A program made the position numbers and the translations under genes. The notes below the pieces were generated by a model. That model saw nothing but the letters and a program-made list of their open reading frames with translations, was not told the origin of the DNA and made no database searches. Source: a virus. From it: a stretch of DNA of 20,396 bases. Location of the stretch: IMG/VR virus record IMGVR_UViG_3300045999_002623, positions 1-20,396 of that record, one strand, 5' to 3'. Below are positions 4,705 through 20,396 of the stretch, in pieces; the first letter of the stretch is position 1; each line of letters opens with the position of its first letter.

Positions 4705-4733
4705 TTGACAACTAAGACGGCATCTGCTTAGAT
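4705..4733 (+). promoter_or_regulatory. Possible sigma-70-like promoter ahead of capsid gene
   Basis: A perfect TTGACA (4705-4710) is followed after 17 bases by TTAGAT (4728-4733), which matches TATAAT at only three positions. The -10 overlaps a small hairpin. It could give the capsid gene extra transcription, but the -10 is poor and could be chance. Confidence 0.3.
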
Positions 4734-4758
4734 GCACTCACGCGGGGAGAAATCCCGC
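4720..4758 (+). other. Two tandem hairpins in the capsid-gene leader
   Basis: Hairpin 1 is GCATCT-GCTT-AGATGC (4720-4735), a perfect 6-bp stem with a 4-base loop. Hairpin 2 (4742-4758) pairs GCGGG with CCCGC; in the alternative drawing it has a bulged G and closes on a GAAA (GNRA) tetraloop. Both lie in the non-coding gap between protease and capsid genes. Confidence 0.5.
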
Positions 4759-4788
4759 ACCGAACACAACCTTTCTGAGCAACTCGTT

Positions 4789-4845
4789 AGCGGCCGGAAA
4801 AGTCAAAGCGAAAACATTTCGCCGACTTTTTGCGCCGCTGTTTTA
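4789..4845 (+). terminator. Long terminator-like hairpin before the capsid gene
   Basis: Nested complementary arms pair AGCGGC (4789-4794) with GCCGCT (4834-4839), GAAAAGTC (4797-4804) with GACTTTTT (4824-4831, one G-T pair), and GCGAAA (4808-4813) with TTTCGC (4817-4822) around an ACA loop. GTTTTA follows at 4840-4845. It may be a partial intrinsic terminator or an RNA stabiliser. GCCGAC at 4821-4826 can also pair with GTCGGC at 4854-4859, which would break the long hairpin, so an attenuator-like choice is possible. No gene lies in 4691-4886. Confidence 0.5.
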
Positions 4846-4886
4846 TGGCCTGAGTCGGCATCACACCGATTTAAGGAACTGTAAAA

Positions 4887-6233
4887 ATGATTTGGAGTCT
4901 CAAGGTAATTCGGGAACAGATCGACGAAGAGCTAGCAAAAGTAGATGCCATCGTCGCTCTTGCAAAAGACGAGAGTCGCGACTTTACGCCAGAAGAAGCG
5001 GCAGAAGTCGATCGCATTCAGGGCACTGACGACAAGCCCGGCGTTTTGCAGAAACTGTACGCCGACGAAAAAAGAGCTGCTCGCGTCGAAGCAAACTCAG
5101 CAGCCCGTGTTCGCGCTATCGGCAGCATTCCAGTGGCCGGTCAGTCAAGCAAGGGGCCAGAGTCATCTGAGTTGCCTCGCGTAAAGGTGCCAGCAACTGC
5201 CAAGCGTCATGGCAGCGTAAAGCATTTCAAAGGGCCGGATGCAGAGGCAAACGCTTATACTGCAGGCCGCTTTTTGATGGCGGCAATTAACAAGCACGAG
5301 CCGTCGAAAATGTGGCTCAAAGATCATGGCATTCAGATGGCTGGCTCCAGCGACGATAACAGCAAAGGCGGTTATCTGGTTCCAGATGTGCTTGAAAATG
5401 CAATGGTTGACCTGAAGGAAGAGTACGGGCAGTTTCGCCAGTACGCTCGAAACTGGCCAATGTCGTCTGATGTGTCGTTGATTCCTCGCCGCGTGAGTGG
5501 GTTCACAACCTATTTTGTCGGCCAGAATGACACAATCACAGCATCCGATGCGGCAATGGATCAGGTTCGATTGGAAGCGAAAAAACTGGCAGCGATGACT
5601 CAGTTTTCCAGCGAATTGAACGAAGACGCAATTATCGCTGTCGCTGACTTCTACGCTCGCGAGTTTGCCTATGCACTCGCTGTCAAAGAAGACCAGTGCG
5701 GATTCCTCGGCGATGGTACCAGCACCTACGGCGGCATTGTCGGGCTCGATGGTGCTTTGCTGGCTGGCTCAATTGCAACGGCGACTGCCATTACAACGGC
5801 TGCCGGGCTGACTATCGGCAACTTCGAAGCAGTCGTTGCAAAGCTGCCTCGTTTCCCCGGAATTCAGCCGCGTTGGTACATGCACAACAGCATCTTCCAC
5901 ACGACTGCCGGCCGTCTTCAATTTGCGGCTGGTGGAAACGCTGTGATGGATATTGCTGGGGCACGGCCATTGCAGTTCATGGGATATGAAGTTGTCCTTG
6001 TTAACGCCATGCCATCAACAGCGGCAACTGGCGTAAAGGTCGCGTACTTTGGCGACCTGAGCATGGCTGCAACGATGGGTACTCGTCGCGGCGTCACACT
6101 GCGAGCTGACGAATCTATCTATTTTGCTCAGGACGCATTGGCGTTGCGAGTGACGGAACGATTCGACATCAGCATTCATGAACGCGGAACGGCATCTGTT
6201 GCCGGGCCAATCGTAGCTCTACAAATGGGCTGA
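4887..6233 (+). CDS. Major capsid protein (HK97 fold)
   Basis: This is the main shell protein of the virion head. The 448-residue product has the two-part layout of HK97-type capsid proteins. The N-terminal ~100-130 residues form a charged, coiled-coil-rich scaffold (delta) domain beginning with VIREQIDEELAKVDAIVALA, presumably cut off by the upstream protease. The mature shell domain contains family-like segments such as GGYLVPDVLENAMVDLKEEY (E-loop/N-arm side), FLGDGTSTYGGIVGL (about 271-285) and a C-terminal RGVTLRADESIYFAQDALAL strand pattern. The exact cleavage site cannot be fixed. AAGGA lies 9 bases upstream of the ATG, and a structured leader precedes it. A terminator follows, suggesting a separately tuned, highly expressed gene. 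Confidence 0.94.
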   Translation: MIWSLKVIREQIDEELAKVDAIVALAKDESRDFTPEEAAEVDRIQGTDDKPGVLQKLYADEKRAARVEANSAARVRAIGSIPVAGQSSKGPESSELPRVKVPATAKRHGSVKHFKGPDAEANAYTAGRFLMAAINKHEPSKMWLKDHGIQMAGSSDDNSKGGYLVPDVLENAMVDLKEEYGQFRQYARNWPMSSDVSLIPRRVSGFTTYFVGQNDTITASDAAMDQVRLEAKKLAAMTQFSSELNEDAIIAVADFYAREFAYALAVKEDQCGFLGDGTSTYGGIVGLDGALLAGSIATATAITTAAGLTIGNFEAVVAKLPRFPGIQPRWYMHNSIFHTTAGRLQFAAGGNAVMDIAGARPLQFMGYEVVLVNAMPSTAATGVKVAYFGDLSMAATMGTRRGVTLRADESIYFAQDALALRVTERFDISIHERGTASVAGPIVALQMG

Positions 6234-6253: not shown

Positions 6254-6301
6254 CCGGGTGGACCCGGCCGGAACGCTGGTTCGCTGGCGTTCCGGTCTTT
6301 C
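6254..6301 (+). terminator. Tandem-hairpin terminator after the capsid gene
   Basis: CCGGGT-GG-ACCCGG (6254-6267) is followed directly by CCGGAACGC (6268-6276), a 10-base loop and GCGTTCCGG (6287-6295), then TCTTTC. The second, 9-bp GC-rich stem with a T-rich tail looks like an intrinsic terminator placed 20-60 bases after the capsid stop. Confidence 0.75.
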
Positions 6302-14916: not shown

Positions 14917-15989
14917 TGAAACCCTGCACCTACCGTGGGCTGGTATCCGATACGCATTGCGAATGCTTCAATTTCGAAGACCTTTCGCACTCGGGAATGG
15001 TTCCTTTGAAAATCTGTCAGATTTGCCCCTATGCAACTCCTCCCGCAGTCGGATTCTTCGCTCAGACGCAGCAACTACTTGTACAAAAAGCACGTCGCGG
15101 AGAAATTACAGTAGCGGCAAAGCCATGCGGCGGATGCGGCGAAACAAAACACCGAGTGCCCGAACCTGAAGTCACGCAGTTCGTATGGCCGTATTGGGAC
15201 GGTGGGGCACAAGCTGACGAGCTTCGATGGTCCATTCGATCAGTCGAGACATTCTTCCAAGGACGTGCGAAGATTACAATCATCGGTGATCGCCCGGACT
15301 GGTATCACGGGCATGTCATTATCAAAAAGAGAGTCTCGCACACGAAGCCGAATCGAGCGTTTCGCGACATGCTCGGCAAGGTGTTCTATATCGCCACTCA
15401 TGCCGAGATTGATCCTGAGTGCGTGTGGATGATGGATGACATCTATTTCCTGAAGCCATTCACATTAGACGACATCAAGACCCCTCGCGCGGAACCGTGG
15501 CGGCCGGACGAGAGCAACAGTTGGCAGAAGCGTAAAACGGCGTCGATGGAAGCACTGGCGGCCCGTGGATTAACTCAACACGACTACGCGACGCATCTTC
15601 CGCACTGGCTCGAGAAAGACAAACTGCGGGCGATGTTCGACGACTTTAATCTGCACGAGCATACCATGCTTTGGGAAGTGCTGTACGGCAATGTTTACCG
15701 AGGCACTCCGCAACGCACGAAACCATTCTTTGCGCGGTTTCAGCATCAGGCAGACAAAGAAACATACCAGCGACTGACAGCGAACACGACCGTCATCAAT
15801 AACACTGAGCCAGCGTGGTGCGATGGCCTACGCGACTTTCTTGCTGAACTGCTGCCTACTCCTTCAATCGTTGAAGCTGAACATGAGGAGTCGAAGCCGG
15901 TTTACATCATCACGAAAAAGGGGCCACGAATTGTGAAGCGGCGACCACTGGAAACGCACAGAGACTACATCGAGAAGCAAGCTCAATGA
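14913..15989 (+). CDS. Glycosyltransferase-like protein with Cys-rich N-terminus
   Basis: The 358-residue protein begins with a zinc-binding-like region: C5, C16, C18, C35, C38 then C72 and C75 (PCGGCGE). The catalytic-like region follows: VTQFVWPYWDGGAQADELRW (88-107), ITIIGDRPDW (121-130) and VWMMDDIYFLKPFTLDDI (171-188), where D175-D176 fits the DxD/DD metal-sugar site of GT-A enzymes and recalls Stealth-like sugar-phosphate transferases. I chose ATG 14913 because it overlaps the previous stop (ATGA). The frame is open further upstream, but that part lies inside the Ser-rich gene. Acceptor and donor are unknown; the Cys-rich region may bind a partner protein. The next glycosyltransferase gene overlaps its stop. 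Confidence 0.68.
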   Translation: MMKPCTYRGLVSDTHCECFNFEDLSHSGMVPLKICQICPYATPPAVGFFAQTQQLLVQKARRGEITVAAKPCGGCGETKHRVPEPEVTQFVWPYWDGGAQADELRWSIRSVETFFQGRAKITIIGDRPDWYHGHVIIKKRVSHTKPNRAFRDMLGKVFYIATHAEIDPECVWMMDDIYFLKPFTLDDIKTPRAEPWRPDESNSWQKRKTASMEALAARGLTQHDYATHLPHWLEKDKLRAMFDDFNLHEHTMLWEVLYGNVYRGTPQRTKPFFARFQHQADKETYQRLTANTTVINNTEPAWCDGLRDFLAELLPTPSIVEAEHEESKPVYIITKKGPRIVKRRPLETHRDYIEKQAQ

Positions 15990-17392
15990 TTCCTCACATC
16001 ATGATCATTCAGTCGGCTTACACTGACCGCAGGCTATCAGAGCGACGGCTGGAGATTTCTCGACACACTGCGATACCATCGCTCGCATACCAGACCGTCA
16101 AGCCGATCATTCACATTACGGTCAATCCTGATGATCCGTTTCTGGCCGAACGGCTTGACGCATTCCGGTCGACTGGCTGCGAGGTTAAGCCGCTTTACAG
16201 GCCCAACTGGAAACTCTACCGAGAGAACTGGGAGCTTCCAGAGGGGCGAAAGATCGTCAGCCGCATGGACGATGATGACGTGATCTGTAAAGAGTATTGC
16301 GAACGGACACGCGAAGCCGCCCCAGAGTCCGGCGAATGGAATCTGATCTGGCCAAACGGTTACGTCTTCTGGCGTGAGACGTGCTACCTGTTGCATCATC
16401 CCGGCATACAGTTTGTGACGCTGGTGACGGATCACGACAAAGATCCACACCAAGAGCAGCACTGGGGATACCACAAGCGATGGCAAACAAAGGTCGTTTC
16501 CGATGCGGTCGGTTGGATCTGGGTTCGTCATGGTGACGCGGCATCGTCAACACTGCCGAGATATCGCAAAGTCAAAAAAAGCGGCATTGATTCAAAGCGA
16601 ATTCCAATCAACCTGAGAGCGATCCTGAGAGCCATAGCGGACTCTGGGACAGCCAGCGGGAACTATACGGAACATCGCAATCCGGCACTGTTGGCCCATG
16701 TGCTACAGCAAAACAAACGGCACGAACCGGCAACACCAGCGGGGCCGCGTTTTCTGGTCGTAGTCCCGACACATCGACTGGACGTTGCTCAGGCGACAAT
16801 TGACGAGCTGCAAATGTCGTTTACGTACCCGACAGAGTTTCACATTCTCGACGGCACGCCCTCGAAGTGTCACGCACTCAACAAGGCTCTGGCCGAACTG
16901 CTTGACCCTGCAAGGCATGACATCTACGTAACGATCGACGACGACATTCTGCCAGGGGAAAACTGGCAGCACTTCATTGCATGTGCATTCGACCGCATTC
17001 CGAAGCTCGGAGCGTGCGGAGTCGATTACAGCGGGACTGAAGAAGGCCGGACGCTAATGGCCAACGCCATGAACTCACCAGTTCAGCAGGTTAGAGACAT
17101 CCAGTTCCGCGACGCTACAGGCTTTATGAATCTGGCTGGAGGTTGCTTTGCGATCAGGTCCGCACTAGCCAAGGAGATTGGCCCGTATCCATTCGCGGAC
17201 GATGGCAGACAATACCATGCCGATGAGGATGGATGGCGATCGCATCAGGTCACGCGGCGTGGCTGGCGGGTCGGCTATGTCACGAATCCCAATGAGCCGG
17301 TCAGGATGATTACGCACGTCAACACAGAGCAGTATATCGAGACGAAAGCCAAGGACGTAGAGGCGTGGCAAGCGAGGCCAGTCTGGTCATGA
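15986..17392 (+). CDS. Tandem two-domain glycosyltransferase
   Basis: The 468-residue protein carries two glycosyltransferase-like halves. The first (about 1-190) resembles rhamnosyltransferase-like enzymes: IIHITVNPDDPFLAERLDAF (41-60) and IVSRMDDDDVICKEY (90-104) with D95-D98 as the metal/nucleotide site. The second (about 255-468) opens with RFLVVVPTHRL, has IYVTIDDDILPGENW (313-327) with D318-D320 as a classical DxD, and continues with GFMNLAGGCFAIRSALAKEI and HADEDGW, as in GT2-like enzymes. Two active sites suggest that two different sugars are added in sequence, or that one protein builds a disaccharide. It overlaps the preceding glycosyltransferase gene by ATGA and ends the + strand tail operon. 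Confidence 0.75.
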   Translation: MIPHIMIIQSAYTDRRLSERRLEISRHTAIPSLAYQTVKPIIHITVNPDDPFLAERLDAFRSTGCEVKPLYRPNWKLYRENWELPEGRKIVSRMDDDDVICKEYCERTREAAPESGEWNLIWPNGYVFWRETCYLLHHPGIQFVTLVTDHDKDPHQEQHWGYHKRWQTKVVSDAVGWIWVRHGDAASSTLPRYRKVKKSGIDSKRIPINLRAILRAIADSGTASGNYTEHRNPALLAHVLQQNKRHEPATPAGPRFLVVVPTHRLDVAQATIDELQMSFTYPTEFHILDGTPSKCHALNKALAELLDPARHDIYVTIDDDILPGENWQHFIACAFDRIPKLGACGVDYSGTEEGRTLMANAMNSPVQQVRDIQFRDATGFMNLAGGCFAIRSALAKEIGPYPFADDGRQYHADEDGWRSHQVTRRGWRVGYVTNPNEPVRMITHVNTEQYIETKAKDVEAWQARPVWS

Positions 17393-17430
17393 AGTCATAG
17401 TTACGGCCCCGGCGTCATGAACCGGACCAA

Positions 17431-17475
17431 CGCAGCCTGGGAAGATCCTGAGCCGATCGGTTCAGGATCGCTGCG
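17431..17475. terminator. Large inverted repeat between convergent genes
   Basis: The 26-base near-perfect palindrome 17444-17469 (GATCCTGA ... TCAGGATC, with CCGATCGG in the centre) is extended by CGCAGC (17431-17436) and GCTGCG (17470-17475), leaving a 7-base bulge on one side. It lies between the tail operon and a minus-strand gene that converge on it, so a bidirectional terminator is plausible. There is no long T-run on either strand, so a protein-binding or structural role remains possible. Confidence 0.5.
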
Positions 17476-17485
17476 TTTGATGGAC

Positions 17486-17701
17486 TCATGTTTTGCTTCC
17501 GGCGAAAATCTTGGCTCCCCAGAAAAACAACGCAAGACCAGCGATAGCCCCAAACGTGCCGACCCATCCGATGCAGTCGTAATAAAAATCATCGGACGGA
17601 GACCCGACTTTGTTGCCTGCATAGGATGCGACTTGGCCGAAGACGACGACCATCGCAATGCCGCCCACAAGCATAAAGCCCGCACCAGTCTTTGAGACCA
17701 T
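17486..17701 (-). CDS. Small two-helix membrane protein (holin-like size)
   Basis: The 71-residue minus-strand protein has two predicted membrane helices: AGFMLVGGIAMVVVFGQVAS (about 7-26) and CIGWVGTFGAIAGLALFFWG (about 43-62), joined by a polar loop with DDFYYD and ending in a short basic tail. Size and two-helix topology suit a holin or a small inner-membrane modulator, but no endolysin gene is visible nearby, so the role is open. ATG 17701 is chosen because GAGGG lies about 8 bases upstream; longer GTG starts exist. Its start overlaps the stop of the 31-residue ORF upstream on the same strand (TGATG). A + strand ORF antisense to it looks like a shadow. Confidence 0.65.
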   Translation of the reverse strand: MVSKTGAGFMLVGGIAMVVVFGQVASYAGNKVGSPSDDFYYDCIGWVGTFGAIAGLALFFWGAKIFAGSKT

Positions 17702-17796
17702 CACGCACACCCTCTTGCGAACCACATCAGCAGCAGAATCGGGCCTGCGACAATGCAGGCTTTGAGGTCACGGGCGATTCGGCGGGACGGGTTCAT
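17701..17796 (-). CDS. 31-residue membrane peptide
   Basis: A minus-strand ORF of 31 codons begins MNPSRRIARDLKACIVAGPI and ends LLLMWFARGCA. It has a basic N-terminus and one hydrophobic stretch, the layout of a tiny single-span membrane peptide. Its TGA overlaps the ATG of the next minus-strand gene as TGATG, which suggests coupling; that is the main argument, since no clear ribosome binding site precedes it. A leader peptide or regulator of the holin-like protein is possible. Confidence 0.4.
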   Translation of the reverse strand: MNPSRRIARDLKACIVAGPILLLMWFARGCA

Positions 17797-17926
17797 GGGG
17801 GACAGGATTGACGCGGACGGGCGAAAAGTCAAATGACTAGCCAGCCGCGAGCCGTTCGGCGGTCATGCTGACCAGAAGACCTAATAAAACACGGGCAAAA
17901 CAAAATCTTTTCCACAATCCTGCAAA
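17797..17926. other. Intergenic stretch without a recognised gene
   Basis: I see no convincing ORF, tRNA or repeat here. The minus strand has TTGACT (17832-17827) with a poor -10 17 bases on, so a weak promoter for the minus-strand pair is possible but not supported. An A-rich segment (17884-17908) precedes the operator pair. Confidence 0.4.
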
Positions 17927-17936
17927 ATGATATCAC
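17927..17936. promoter_or_regulatory. Operator half-pair, upstream copy (ATGATATCAC)
   Basis: ATGATATCAC contains the 8-base palindrome TGATATCA and is the exact reverse complement of GTGATATCAT at 17961-17970; the two palindrome centres are 34 bases apart. It lies just upstream of the -35 box, where a repressor or activator could bind. The protein that reads it is not identified. Confidence 0.65.
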
Positions 17937-17942
17937 CATCCA

Positions 17943-17970
17943 TTGACGCCCCTGCCGATAGTGATATCAT
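17943..17970 (+). promoter_or_regulatory. Sigma-70-like promoter of the 18043 gene
   Basis: TTGACG (17943-17948) and TATCAT (17965-17970) are separated by 16 bases and match the consensus at 5 of 6 positions each. This is the best promoter seen in the window. The predicted transcript starts near 17977. The -10 lies within the downstream operator. Confidence 0.7.
17961..17970. promoter_or_regulatory. Operator half-pair, downstream copy (GTGATATCAT)
   Basis: It contains the same TGATATCA palindrome and covers the -10 box of the promoter at 17943-17970. A protein bound here would block RNA polymerase; with the copy at 17927-17936 it could loop or bind cooperatively across the -35. Confidence 0.65.
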
Positions 17971-18014
17971 GCCCGCACGGAGACGCAGTGTGTGACTCGG
18001 ACGCAAACCAAAGT

Positions 18015-18029
18015 GAGGCCGCAAGCCTC
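18015..18029 (+). other. Short leader hairpin before the 18043 gene
   Basis: GAGGC-CGCAA-GCCTC forms a 5-bp stem right before the GGGGAG ribosome binding site (18030-18035). It could shade the site or stabilise the 5' end; chance is possible. Confidence 0.4.
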
Positions 18030-18042
18030 GGGGAGAATTGAA

Positions 18043-18411
18043 ATGGCTTTTGTATCACAAGACGATAAAGCAAAGTTGGCTCCAGCGATTAAGGCAGTTT
18101 TGAAGAAGCATGGAGTTAAGGGTTCGATCGGCGTTCGTCATCATTCAACGCTGGTTGTCACGCTTCAGTCAGGTTCAATCGATTTCGGAAATGATTACAT
18201 TCAGGTCAATCACTACCACATCGAGACAAGCGAACGCTACAGTCCAGAAGCGAAAGCATTCTTGACGGAACTTGTGGCAGCGATGTACAGCGAAGACTGG
18301 TTTGATCGCAGTGATTCGCAAACCGATTACTTTCACTGCTCATATTATTTGTCTGTCAATGTTGGCAAATGGAATAAGCCTTACATCTGCACTGCTCCAG
18401 TAGCGTGCTGA
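18043..18411 (+). CDS. Conserved phage hypothetical protein
   Basis: The 122-residue product starts at ATG 18043, which has GGGGAG 7 bases upstream. It opens MAFVSQDDKAKLAPAIKAVL and contains GVKGSIGVRHHSTLVVTLQS (24-43), SIDFGNDYIQVN (45-56), DRSDSQTDYF (88-97) and SVNVGKWNKPY (104-114). I recall a family of short phage and mobile-element proteins with this same order of motifs (RHHSTL, DRSDxQxDYF, NVGxWNKPY); its function is unknown to me. It has its own promoter with operators and its own terminator, so it is an independent unit, probably early and highly regulated. Confidence 0.88.
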   Translation: MAFVSQDDKAKLAPAIKAVLKKHGVKGSIGVRHHSTLVVTLQSGSIDFGNDYIQVNHYHIETSERYSPEAKAFLTELVAAMYSEDWFDRSDSQTDYFHCSYYLSVNVGKWNKPYICTAPVAC

Positions 18412-18417
18412 TTCCCT

Positions 18418-18487
18418 CGCCAGTCCGGTGCAGCCATAAGCAAGCTGCACCGGCCTTGGCTGGTTCAATCCGGACTGGCGACTTTTC
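18418..18487 (+). terminator. Two-tier terminator after the 18043 gene
   Basis: CGCCAGTCCGG (18418-18428) pairs with CCGGACTGGCG (18470-18480), followed by ACTTTTC. Inside, CCGGTGCAGC (18425-18434) can pair with GCTGCACCGG (18444-18453). The inner and outer helices share CCGG, so they form either a nested structure or two exchangeable forms. The T-rich end supports an intrinsic terminator 7 bases after the stop. Confidence 0.8.
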
Positions 18488-18501
18488 AAGACTGACCGCA
18501 A

Positions 18502-18615
18502 ATGCCAACACTCGCAACAATCCGCAATCTGCAAGCCCGCATTATCTACGCCACGAACGACGGCAACCACGCCGAAGTTTTGCGGCTAAAAAAGGAACTG
18601 GAGAACGTGAAGTGA
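18502..18615 (+). CDS. 37-residue coupled peptide
   Basis: ATG 18502 opens a 37-codon ORF: MPTLATIRNLQARIIYATND through HAEVLRLKKELENVK. The C-terminal half looks like an amphipathic helix. It ends with TGA overlapping the GTG of the next gene (GTGA), the same type of junction used throughout this module. No good ribosome binding site precedes it; it begins 15 bases after the terminator T-run. It may be a small protein or mainly a translational leader for the ribbon-helix-helix gene. Confidence 0.5.
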   Translation: MPTLATIRNLQARIIYATNDGNHAEVLRLKKELENVK

Positions 18616-18767
18616 CAAAGAAAGTCAAAGGCAATCCTCAACTGCTGCTGCGTGTTCCACCGGAACTTCAAAAGCCGTTAGCGGATGAATCAGCGAAGAC
18701 CGGCGAAAGTCGGCAGGGCGTGTTGTGGCGGATCGCGGCAAAGTACTTTAAGGGGCGGAAAGCGTGA
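18612..18767 (+). CDS. Small ribbon-helix-helix DNA-binding protein
   Basis: The 51-residue product begins MTKKVKGNPQLLLRVPPELQ. A short strand (PQLLLRV, 9-15) followed by two helices (about 16-29 and 32-47, with a GES turn between) is the shape of Arc/CopG-type repressors, which dimerise and insert the strand into the DNA major groove. The frame is open much further upstream, but only this part is protein-like, and GTG 18612 overlaps the previous stop as GTGA. It is a candidate repressor for the TGATATCA operators at 17927-17970; that is inference from proximity. Confidence 0.72.
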   Translation: MTKKVKGNPQLLLRVPPELQKPLADESAKTGESRQGVLWRIAAKYFKGRKA

Positions 18768-19120
18768 ACTACCGCACTCTCTTCGACATCCCCGAAACAA
18801 CGGCCCCAATCGCTCGCCACAGCGATCCAATCACAAGCCAGAAAGCCGCCGAACGAATCCAGCCAACAGTCACCGCCCGTCAACTGCAATGCTTGGAAGT
18901 TCTCCGCCAACACGGTCAGCCAATGACATCAAACGAACTGGCTGAAGCGTGCTGTGATCGGTTCTGCTCAGATCTCAAAGTTGATCCTGTGCAGTACGCA
19001 AAGAAGCTTGACAACTTCCGGAAGCGGGCTGACGAGATCAAGCGAAACGAAGACCTGTGCATTCGGCTGGATGCGGAGCGGGATGGCGGGCAGTTGTTTA
19101 AGGCAAAGGACGGCAAATGA
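18764..19120 (+). CDS. Winged-helix-like phage protein
   Basis: The 118-residue protein starts at GTG 18764 (GTGA overlap). It contains DPITSQKAAERI (21-32), a motif common in small phage proteins with a winged-helix domain, then TARQLQCLEVLRQHGQPMTS (37-56) and NELAEACCDRF, a plausible helix-turn-helix, and ends in a basic helical region. Regulation or replication-associated DNA binding is likely; the exact job is unknown. The stop overlaps the next gene as ATGA. Confidence 0.7.
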   Translation: MNYRTLFDIPETTAPIARHSDPITSQKAAERIQPTVTARQLQCLEVLRQHGQPMTSNELAEACCDRFCSDLKVDPVQYAKKLDNFRKRADEIKRNEDLCIRLDAERDGGQLFKAKDGK

Positions 19121-19398
19121 TTATTCCGCAAAGCAAGTCAAAGCCACCAGTCCCACATAAGGATTCGCGATTGACGCCGATTGTTTGCTTGGGAGTTATC
19201 AAGATTCGACGGTCAGGAGGCGGAGGGCGACCGATTTGGAAGTGCCGGTGTGAATGCGGAAACGTCATCCTGACAGCACGCCACCGAATCCAAAACGGTG
19301 AAACCAAGTCATGTGGATGCCTGCGAAAAGAAATGTCACGCGACGCGATCAAGCACGCTCAACAAGTTAGGAGAGACAAGTATGCCGCTATTAAATGA
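19117..19398 (+). CDS. Zinc-ribbon-like DNA-binding protein
   Basis: The 93-residue protein has C43, C45 and C47 (WKCRCECGN) and C66, C68 (KSCGCL), a zinc-binding layout that phage HNH- and AP2-type proteins carry as a separate DNA-contacting module. No HNH or AP2 catalytic part follows, so the protein is a stand-alone module or a remnant of a homing nuclease. Basic residues before and after it fit nucleic acid binding. ATG 19117 overlaps the previous stop (ATGA), and the gene overlaps the next one by 17 bases. Confidence 0.7.
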   Translation: MIIPQSKSKPPVPHKDSRLTPIVCLGVIKIRRSGGGGRPIWKCRCECGNVILTARHRIQNGETKSCGCLRKEMSRDAIKHAQQVRRDKYAAIK

Positions 19399-19528
19399 AA
19401 TCATCGCAACAGTGTTACTTATTGTTTTGGCGTGGTTTGCGGCTGGATCATCGCAACTCGCTGACGAGCGAAGCCAGATCAAGCGTGGGAACAAGTGGGT
19501 GCGGGACAACTACCCGCCAACATACTAA
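19382..19528 (+). CDS. Small single-span membrane protein
   Basis: The 48-residue protein starts at ATG 19382 with AGGAGA about 8 bases upstream, a strong ribosome binding site that decides the start. It has one membrane helix (IIATVLLIVLAWFAAGSS, about 7-24) followed by a basic/polar tail ending WVRDNYPPTY. It overlaps the zinc-ribbon-like gene by 17 bases in another frame. Possible roles are membrane modulation or superinfection exclusion; nothing in the sequence decides. Confidence 0.75.
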   Translation: MPLLNEIIATVLLIVLAWFAAGSSQLADERSQIKRGNKWVRDNYPPTY

Positions 19529-19692
19529 CCGGCGAGAGCAAGGGCTCACCGGATTAAATCGGAACGGGCAGTTCGTTTCTGTCCGGCCCGCTGTCAACGG
19601 CGGCGGGCGAATCTCCCTCAGAGCCTGCTGCATTGGAAAATGATTTTCAACGGCTGGCCCCCGCAAGCCAATGAAGGCGCGGCAGGCTCTGA
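19529..19692 (+). ncRNA. Highly structured non-coding region (possible leader RNA)
   Basis: Several helices can form here. CCGG...CCGG with one mismatch spans 19529-19552. GCCCG (19586-19590) can pair with CGGGC upstream (19565-19569) or CGGGC downstream (19604-19608), mutually exclusive choices. TCAGAGCCTGC (19618-19628) pairs with GCAGGCTCTGA (19682-19692), 11 bp, enclosing hairpins such as TTGGAAA-ATGA-TTTTCAA (19633-19650) and ATTGG/CCAAT. Together with the terminator 10 bases on, this looks like a leader or small RNA. Class unknown; no known riboswitch motif recognised. Confidence 0.5.
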
Positions 19693-19701
19693 TTTGTCAC
19701 T

Positions 19702-19766
19702 CCTGCGAACAGTCACCAAGGGTTCGGCGTTTCCAGCAGTCACGCCGAGACTGTTCGCAGGTTTTT
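19702..19766 (+). terminator. Very strong terminator in front of csrA-like gene
   Basis: CCTGCGAACAGTC (19702-19714) and GACTGTTCGCAGG (19749-19761) form a perfect 13-bp stem; inside it, TCGGCGT (19724-19730) pairs with ACGCCGA (19742-19748). Five Ts follow (19762-19766), then a further T/C-rich tract. The stem ends only 28 bases before the csrA ribosome binding site, so the csrA transcript would have to read through it. Confidence 0.85.
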
Positions 19767-19800
19767 CTCTCGTGTTTTTCTTTCTCTACGGAGGTGTGCC

Positions 19801-20079
19801 ATCTTAGTTTTAACTCGGAAGCTTGACGAAAAAATCATCTTCGACATTCCAGCATCGTCAGTGCCTCAGCAAATCACTCTGAACGTGAATGAGATTCGAG
19901 CTGACAAAGTAAGGCTCGGAATCATCGCTGACAGATCAATCACGATTGACCGCAAAGAGATTGCGGATTCGAAAGCAGTTCACGGAGTCTGGAAGAAGCC
20001 AGAGCGTCCGGAGATTTCATCCGTCGTACGAATCGGTGAACGACTTCCCGGCGAACTAATGCGGAGAAAACCGCAATGA
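19801..20079 (+). CDS. csrA: CsrA-like RNA-binding regulator with ATC start
   Basis: The frame from 19804 encodes LVLTRKLDEKIIF directly, the CsrA N-terminus without its initial Met, so the start codon would be ATC at 19801. GGAGG (19790-19794) lies 6 bases upstream, ideal spacing. Further CsrA features are ITLNVNEIRADKVRLGIIAD (25-44), matching the family's strand and R-x-G-I-x-A core, and ITIDRKEI with R51 at the position of the RNA-contacting Arg44 of E. coli CsrA. A DIPASSVPQQ loop adds about six residues over E. coli CsrA, and the tail (to 92 residues) is extended. The next in-frame conventional start, GTG 19861, would remove the first strand and R6. It should bind GGA-containing RNA hairpins and alter translation; its own ACGGAGG is a possible self-target. 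Confidence 0.85.
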   Translation: MLVLTRKLDEKIIFDIPASSVPQQITLNVNEIRADKVRLGIIADRSITIDRKEIADSKAVHGVWKKPERPEISSVVRIGERLPGELMRRKPQ

Positions 20080-20327
20080 CACGACGCAAGAAAGCCGGAA
20101 AGAAATCCAACAGGCTACACGCTCCAACAGGCCACAAGCCAATGACGCGAGATCCATCCTTGGAAGAGATCTGGGGCACTGAAACAACGATCGGGCTGGC
20201 GGAAATGATACGGATGGAACGGCCTGACTTGCCGCAGAACAAAGGGCTGCATCGGCCATCACAGATTCGTGAGTGTTCGACGCGAATGCTGCCGGGCGGC
20301 AGGGGCGTATTGAGGGGGCAGGGATGA
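20076..20327 (+). CDS. Small basic protein, unrecognised
   Basis: The 83-residue protein is not recognised. It opens with a basic stretch (MTRRKKAGKKSNRLHAPTGH), then DPSLEEIWGTETTIGLAEMI, a more ordered middle, and a polar C-terminus (RGVLRGQG). It lies between the CsrA-like and RuvC-like genes and overlaps both (ATGA at each end), so it may be a nucleic-acid-binding partner. Low-complexity ends limit confidence in any function. Confidence 0.65.
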   Translation: MTRRKKAGKKSNRLHAPTGHKPMTRDPSLEEIWGTETTIGLAEMIRMERPDLPQNKGLHRPSQIRECSTRMLPGGRGVLRGQG

Positions 20328-20396
20328 AACTACCAGCATGGATCGGAATTGATCCGGGAGCATCGGGAGCCATTGCAGTCGTATTTGGTTCGGGCA
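20324..20396 (+). CDS. RuvC-like Holliday junction resolvase, N-terminus (partial)
   Basis: The ATG overlaps the preceding stop (ATGA). The 24 visible residues begin MKLPAWIGIDPGASGAIAVV: GIDPGxSGA is the first-strand motif of RuvC-type RNase H-fold resolvases, with the aspartate as a catalytic metal ligand. Phages use such enzymes to resolve branched DNA before packaging. The gene runs off the window, so the other catalytic acids cannot be checked. Confidence 0.8.
   Translation, partial: MKLPAWIGIDPGASGAIAVVFGSG

Follow-up and report, generated by a model that had tools for sequence, protein, structure and literature searches.

The csrA-like gene of this phage contig is preceded by an array of structured RNA modules, one of which is a new RNA motif seen only upstream of csrA. 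The array occupies positions 19529–19766 of the window (the whole stretch of 20,396 nucleotides analysed here), on the + strand of a phage contig that also encodes terminase, portal, capsid, and tape-measure proteins on that strand. This arrangement suggests that RNA cassettes placed before csrA set the amount of CsrA late in its operon.

Modular architecture of the csrA leader

We confirmed that structured RNA is present at 19529–19766 beyond chance: the region 19520–19800 has a minimum free energy of −123.7 kcal/mol (z −5.15), and 0 of 200 shuffles were as stable. Relatives were collected via CsrA and separately, without reference to csrA, via motifs of C, D, A, and C'. Comparison with ~60 phage contigs shows the span to be composed of four distinct RNA modules, A–D, with individual fold z-scores of −2.3, −3.6, −4.2, and −6.5, respectively. 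The sequence-only reading had described a switch-like leader; a conserved, covarying RNA with a terminator-like hairpin before csrA is supported, the competing-helix switch it placed in module B is not, and the region is refined into a composite of four exchangeable modules, of which C also occurs in distant phages.

Module A (19529–19553, +) begins directly after a small membrane-protein-like ORF of 48 residues (19382–19528, +) that has no Pfam or PHROG match and whose stop codon abuts the module. A is a hairpin of the form CCGG-cga-GAGC-AAGG-GCUC-a-CCGG, and pairing is kept among its stem variants (GAGC/GCUC, GCGC/GUGC, GGGC/GUCC, and GAGC/GUUC). Module B (19558–19612, +) consists of two adjoining hairpins (19565–19585 and 19586–19608), the same two being predicted for all six variants. 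These had been read as mutually exclusive helices, with 19586–19590 (GCCCG) pairing upstream or downstream. The competing-fold test, which addressed this proposed alternative, speaks against it: the minimum fold holds both hairpins together, and pairing of 19586–19590 with 19565–19569 is absent in L016, L047, L026, L009, and L031, all of which retain both hairpins.

Module C is a conserved four-helix RNA

Module C (19618–19692, +) folds into four helices marked by compensatory changes. P1 (19618–19631/19679–19692) closes the multibranched structure with 14 bp; the closing helix was correctly placed by the sequence-only reading, at a length of 11 bp that we revise. Within it lie P2 (19633–19639/19644–19650), P3 (19651–19653/19661–19663), which exposes the loop CUGGCCC, and P4 (19667–19669/19676–19678), all on the + strand. 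Changes on both sides of a pair occur in 19 of the 27 pairs, versus 8.9 pairs in shuffles, and 96% of cells are paired, versus 82% in shuffles; 0 of 500 shuffles matched the observed alignment. The covariation score is 0.385, against 0.130 shuffled and ≤0.059 slid, in an alignment fitted to the model; an unfitted MAFFT alignment from close relatives likewise lies above its shuffles. P4 is singled out by a double change between L047 and L054, where GCC/GGC becomes UCC/GGA.

A model of C trained on close relatives only (R1) retrieves copies in L012, L026, L058, L155, L166, L151, and L141 at E values from 1e-16 to 6e-7. These seven copies are much more divergent than the training set, and all lie directly upstream of csrA. 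G-U cells outnumber A-C cells by 26:2 in C and by 29:0 in D, an excess that shows the + strand RNA to be under selection. An RNA on the minus strand was considered, and this polarity speaks against it; the matches of a minus-strand model are echoes of the same stems. Conservation extends to unpaired bases, namely the UGGCC loop and a CAA linker, and the inside of C is more conserved than a plain terminator requires.

No Rfam model matches the window at its gathering score, the best match at E ≤ 10 reaching 13.3 bits against a cut-off of 37.8, and a search of GenBank phages and plasmids gave no match. C is a new structured RNA motif outside Rfam. As a kind, the array belongs with terminator and attenuator arrays, and C is its new motif.

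Module C is linked to csrA

Every copy of C, those of distant phages included, sits just upstream of csrA, once per phage record, and searches that ignore csrA recover the same link. It stands alone before csrA in L018, L024, L141, L151, L155, and L166. None of 62 loci that carry the primary motif and are unrelated to csrA folds into C, nor does any of 24 bacterial genome contigs with the core motif. C is also absent from 392 genomes in the phylum of G001 (titled Planctomycetota), in a search whose phage-record positive control worked. Terminase matches for host assignment reach only ~30% identity.

The array as a whole follows the same rule, with csrA downstream of it in every contig that has a readable csrA, across several CsrA subtypes. 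The distance from array end to csrA is 20–113 nt, a further module, E, occupying the longer gaps in several contigs; from the last hairpin, the spacing is about 20–40 nt and near-constant regardless of hairpin type. The csrA genes of Vibrio phages are tightly packed in operons without such a leader. An unrelated phage csrA (L126:2851–3000) has a leader of a different kind with very high stability (z −6.0), and other phage csrA genes may have structured leaders of their own.

The csrA-like gene (19801–20079, +; 92 codons; Pfam CsrA, 1.2e-11) follows a Shine-Dalgarno sequence, GGAGGT (19790–19795, +), and has an apparent ATC start, with no in-frame ATG, GTG, or TTG before 19861 (codon 21). The ATC is common to eight contigs; a 70% identical gene in L008 has ATG. 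Initiation at such a weak codon may contribute to csrA control.

A terminator-like hairpin and a putative upstream promoter

Module D (19702–19766, +) resembles an intrinsic terminator in both covariation and fold (−34.2 kcal/mol, z −6.5), with a GC-rich stem followed by a U tract. The 13-bp two-tier terminator of the sequence-only reading is recovered exactly: an outer stem (19702–19714/19749–19761), inner hairpins, and then T5 (19762–19766), which ends 23 nt ahead of GGAGGT. All 13 bp of the outer stem are paired in 19 of 19 sequences, and six pairs have changed on both sides, so that the covariation expected of a conserved RNA is found in D as it is in C. The tract is short (T5 in the window and T3–T8 in relatives found through CsrA), which weighs against termination; its conservation was judged on these loci only because the motif scan for D itself demanded TTTT. 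Most last hairpins (D, D', E, C', and J) carry a U tract, for example T3–T8 in D, GUGUUUUU in D', and up to T7 in C'. The C modules of L155 and L166 have no T tract and continue with UUGAAACAAC or UUCUAACAAC, which means that intrinsic termination cannot apply to all last hairpins. We infer that D stops RNA polymerase.

Other structured spots occur elsewhere in the window. A strong hairpin with a UUU tail directly follows the capsid gene (6265–6300) and is likely a terminator within the structural genes. Another strong hairpin (4788–4850) separates the protease-like and capsid genes, and 4721–4840 has the lowest + strand z-score of the window (−5.5).

Of 33 distinct loci, 31, the window among them, have no −10-like TANNNT in the stretch from the last hairpin to csrA. 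In the window, its absence from the 44 nt before csrA agrees with the earlier remark that terminator and gene leave no space for a promoter. A putative operon promoter lies farther upstream (17928–17970, +), with TTGACG (17943–17948), a 16-nt spacer, TATCAT (17965–17970), a TG extension, and paired TGATATCA operators at 17928 and 17962 (+). A promoter scan of 15900–20396 found 2 sites versus 2.6 by chance, and the block is singled out by conservation only: a single copy is present in the window and in each of ~35 related records, the divergent L018, L106, and L151 among them, 0.5–4 kb upstream of csrA, in the same orientation, and before differing first genes. In L018, the order is promoter, two small genes, C, and csrA. 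The block probably acts as a regulated promoter for an operon of accessory genes. A phage-specific promoter may also be hidden inside the hairpins.

Exchangeable modules occupy slots

Each of 42 distinct islands contains exactly one of C, C', or J, and C and C' never occur together (Fisher p 3e-7). The co-occurrence count was used for C versus C' only, as its pattern overlooked most copies of D, and four islands that the pattern left unassigned were set by eye or model (L018 as C, L071 and L075 as J, and L105 as a C' variant). D or D' comes next after this slot in most islands. C lacks D in L018, L024, and L026, and elsewhere D accompanies C' or J in place of C. E lies behind D in some islands and is also detected by the D model at ~27 bits (L012 and L048). 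The stems of the array are near-palindromic.

Between A and B, relatives carry insertions of more modules, tRNA, tRNA-like RNAs, and whole genes. Extra structured modules lie between A and B or C in L046, L035, and L049, and ahead of B in L039, L042, L043, L046, and L066; one extra module has ends that covary, and it may form a pseudoknot (AACCACAGCGAC...GCUGUGGCAGGGCGUCC / AACUAAGUGC...GCACUUAGCAGGCGGG). The window has no tRNA. In L014, a tRNA-like gene (5702–5769; Rfam tRNA, 48.7 bits) with an anticodon loop seemingly cut to three bases lies between A and C', and ARAGORN called no tRNA in the same phage (L073 and L076). Other tRNA-like RNAs, with anticodon arms odd or missing as judged by eye, are present in L008, L038, L039, L042, L043, and L046.

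Discussion

The lack of a local promoter motif, together with the shared upstream block, makes a single transcription unit running through the array the simplest reading. On balance, we lean towards exchangeable RNA cassettes within one operon, with termination by D, csrA expression by read-through or processing, and modulation by C. Transcription would start at the operator-flanked promoter (17943–17970), and polymerase would cross a stretch of variable small genes before reaching the cassette array. D, or in other phages D', E, C', or J, would halt most RNA polymerase by intrinsic termination, and csrA and the genes behind it would come from the read-through fraction or from 3' fragments processed beside the last hairpin. 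The csrA-linked domain C would probably modulate the termination or read-through step. Read-through was one of two options offered by the sequence-only reading, and a conserved terminator-like hairpin with no promoter room behind it matches it; the other option, a separate small RNA, may still apply. That dissimilar hairpins replace one another in the same slot speaks more for a simple shared property, a hairpin with a U tract, than for a ligand switch, while the conserved inside of C suggests an additional role beyond that property.

Other readings account for parts of these data. The modules could be independent stable noncoding RNAs with D as a common terminator and csrA merely the next gene, a view that draws on the Rfam tRNA between A and C' in L014, the additional modules before B in five contigs, and the interior conservation of C; we regard it as unlikely, since it leaves unexplained both the constant csrA neighbour of several subtypes and the presence of C alone beside csrA in L018, L155, L166, L141, and L151. 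The near-constant 20–40 nt spacing for any hairpin and the tractless C of L155 and L166 would also fit a last hairpin that shields or sets the 5' end of a csrA mRNA processed in the manner of RNase III, with termination minor. This is somewhat less likely still, given the U tract on most last hairpins.

Tandem terminators typically mark unit boundaries, and D with its neighbours might simply end the upstream unit while csrA is served by a promoter of other than sigma70 type lying across the hairpins, which a different sigma factor of the host may recognise. Yet the distance from last hairpin to start codon is mostly 26–40 nt without TANNNT, and a promoter would be needed within each of several different hairpin families, which makes this improbable. 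Least probable of all, to our judgment, is a ligand-binding riboswitch with C as aptamer and D as expression platform. Its attraction is a C with conserved unpaired bases before one gene type, but the two modules can occur apart (three contigs have C and no D, others D with C' or J), and no conserved alternative pairing emerged from the comparison, which addressed the one proposed for 19586–19590.

Returning to cassettes in one operon, the array resembles intrinsic terminators and attenuators in its GC-rich stem and U tract between promoter and downstream gene. It differs in having multi-branched, sequence-conserved interiors, in occurring two to three in tandem, and in being exchangeable between phages, and, unlike attenuators, it has no detected leader peptide or antiterminator pairing. 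GOLLD and ROOL, ornate noncoding RNAs known also from phages (PMC12286853), are likewise structured, but they span several hundred nucleotides, whereas the array modules measure 25–80 nt, are tied to csrA, and have no Rfam match. The cyanophage manA and wcaG motifs are candidate cis-regulatory RNAs upstream of phage-borne host-like genes (PMC2864571), a position the array shares; here the gene is csrA, Rfam matches are absent, and the motif is one among several exchangeable cassettes. Like the CsrA-sequestering RNAs of the CsrB/RsmZ type, the array is a structured RNA beside csrA, but A–D lack the repeated GGA hairpin loops of those RNAs. A CsrA sponge was accordingly rejected: direct reading of 19529–19766 gives three GGA, none conserved in a loop of A–D, and the GGA in P2 of C is missing from L018 and L141. 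By eye, the C' of some relatives shows AGGAA in a small hairpin loop.

Phages often carry csrA, and its control by phages is little described in the literature that we searched for phage-encoded CsrA. A bolder and rather doubtful extension is that C represents a novel type of cis-regulatory RNA devoted to phage csrA, which might respond to a protein, RNA, or metabolite during infection, with cassettes A, B, C/C'/J, D/D', and E swapped by recombination. A conserved RNA motif confined to the region ahead of phage csrA offers a direct way to study the timing and mode by which phages use this global regulator, and the exchange of RNA cassettes in defined slots would be a concrete example of modular evolution in transcription control.
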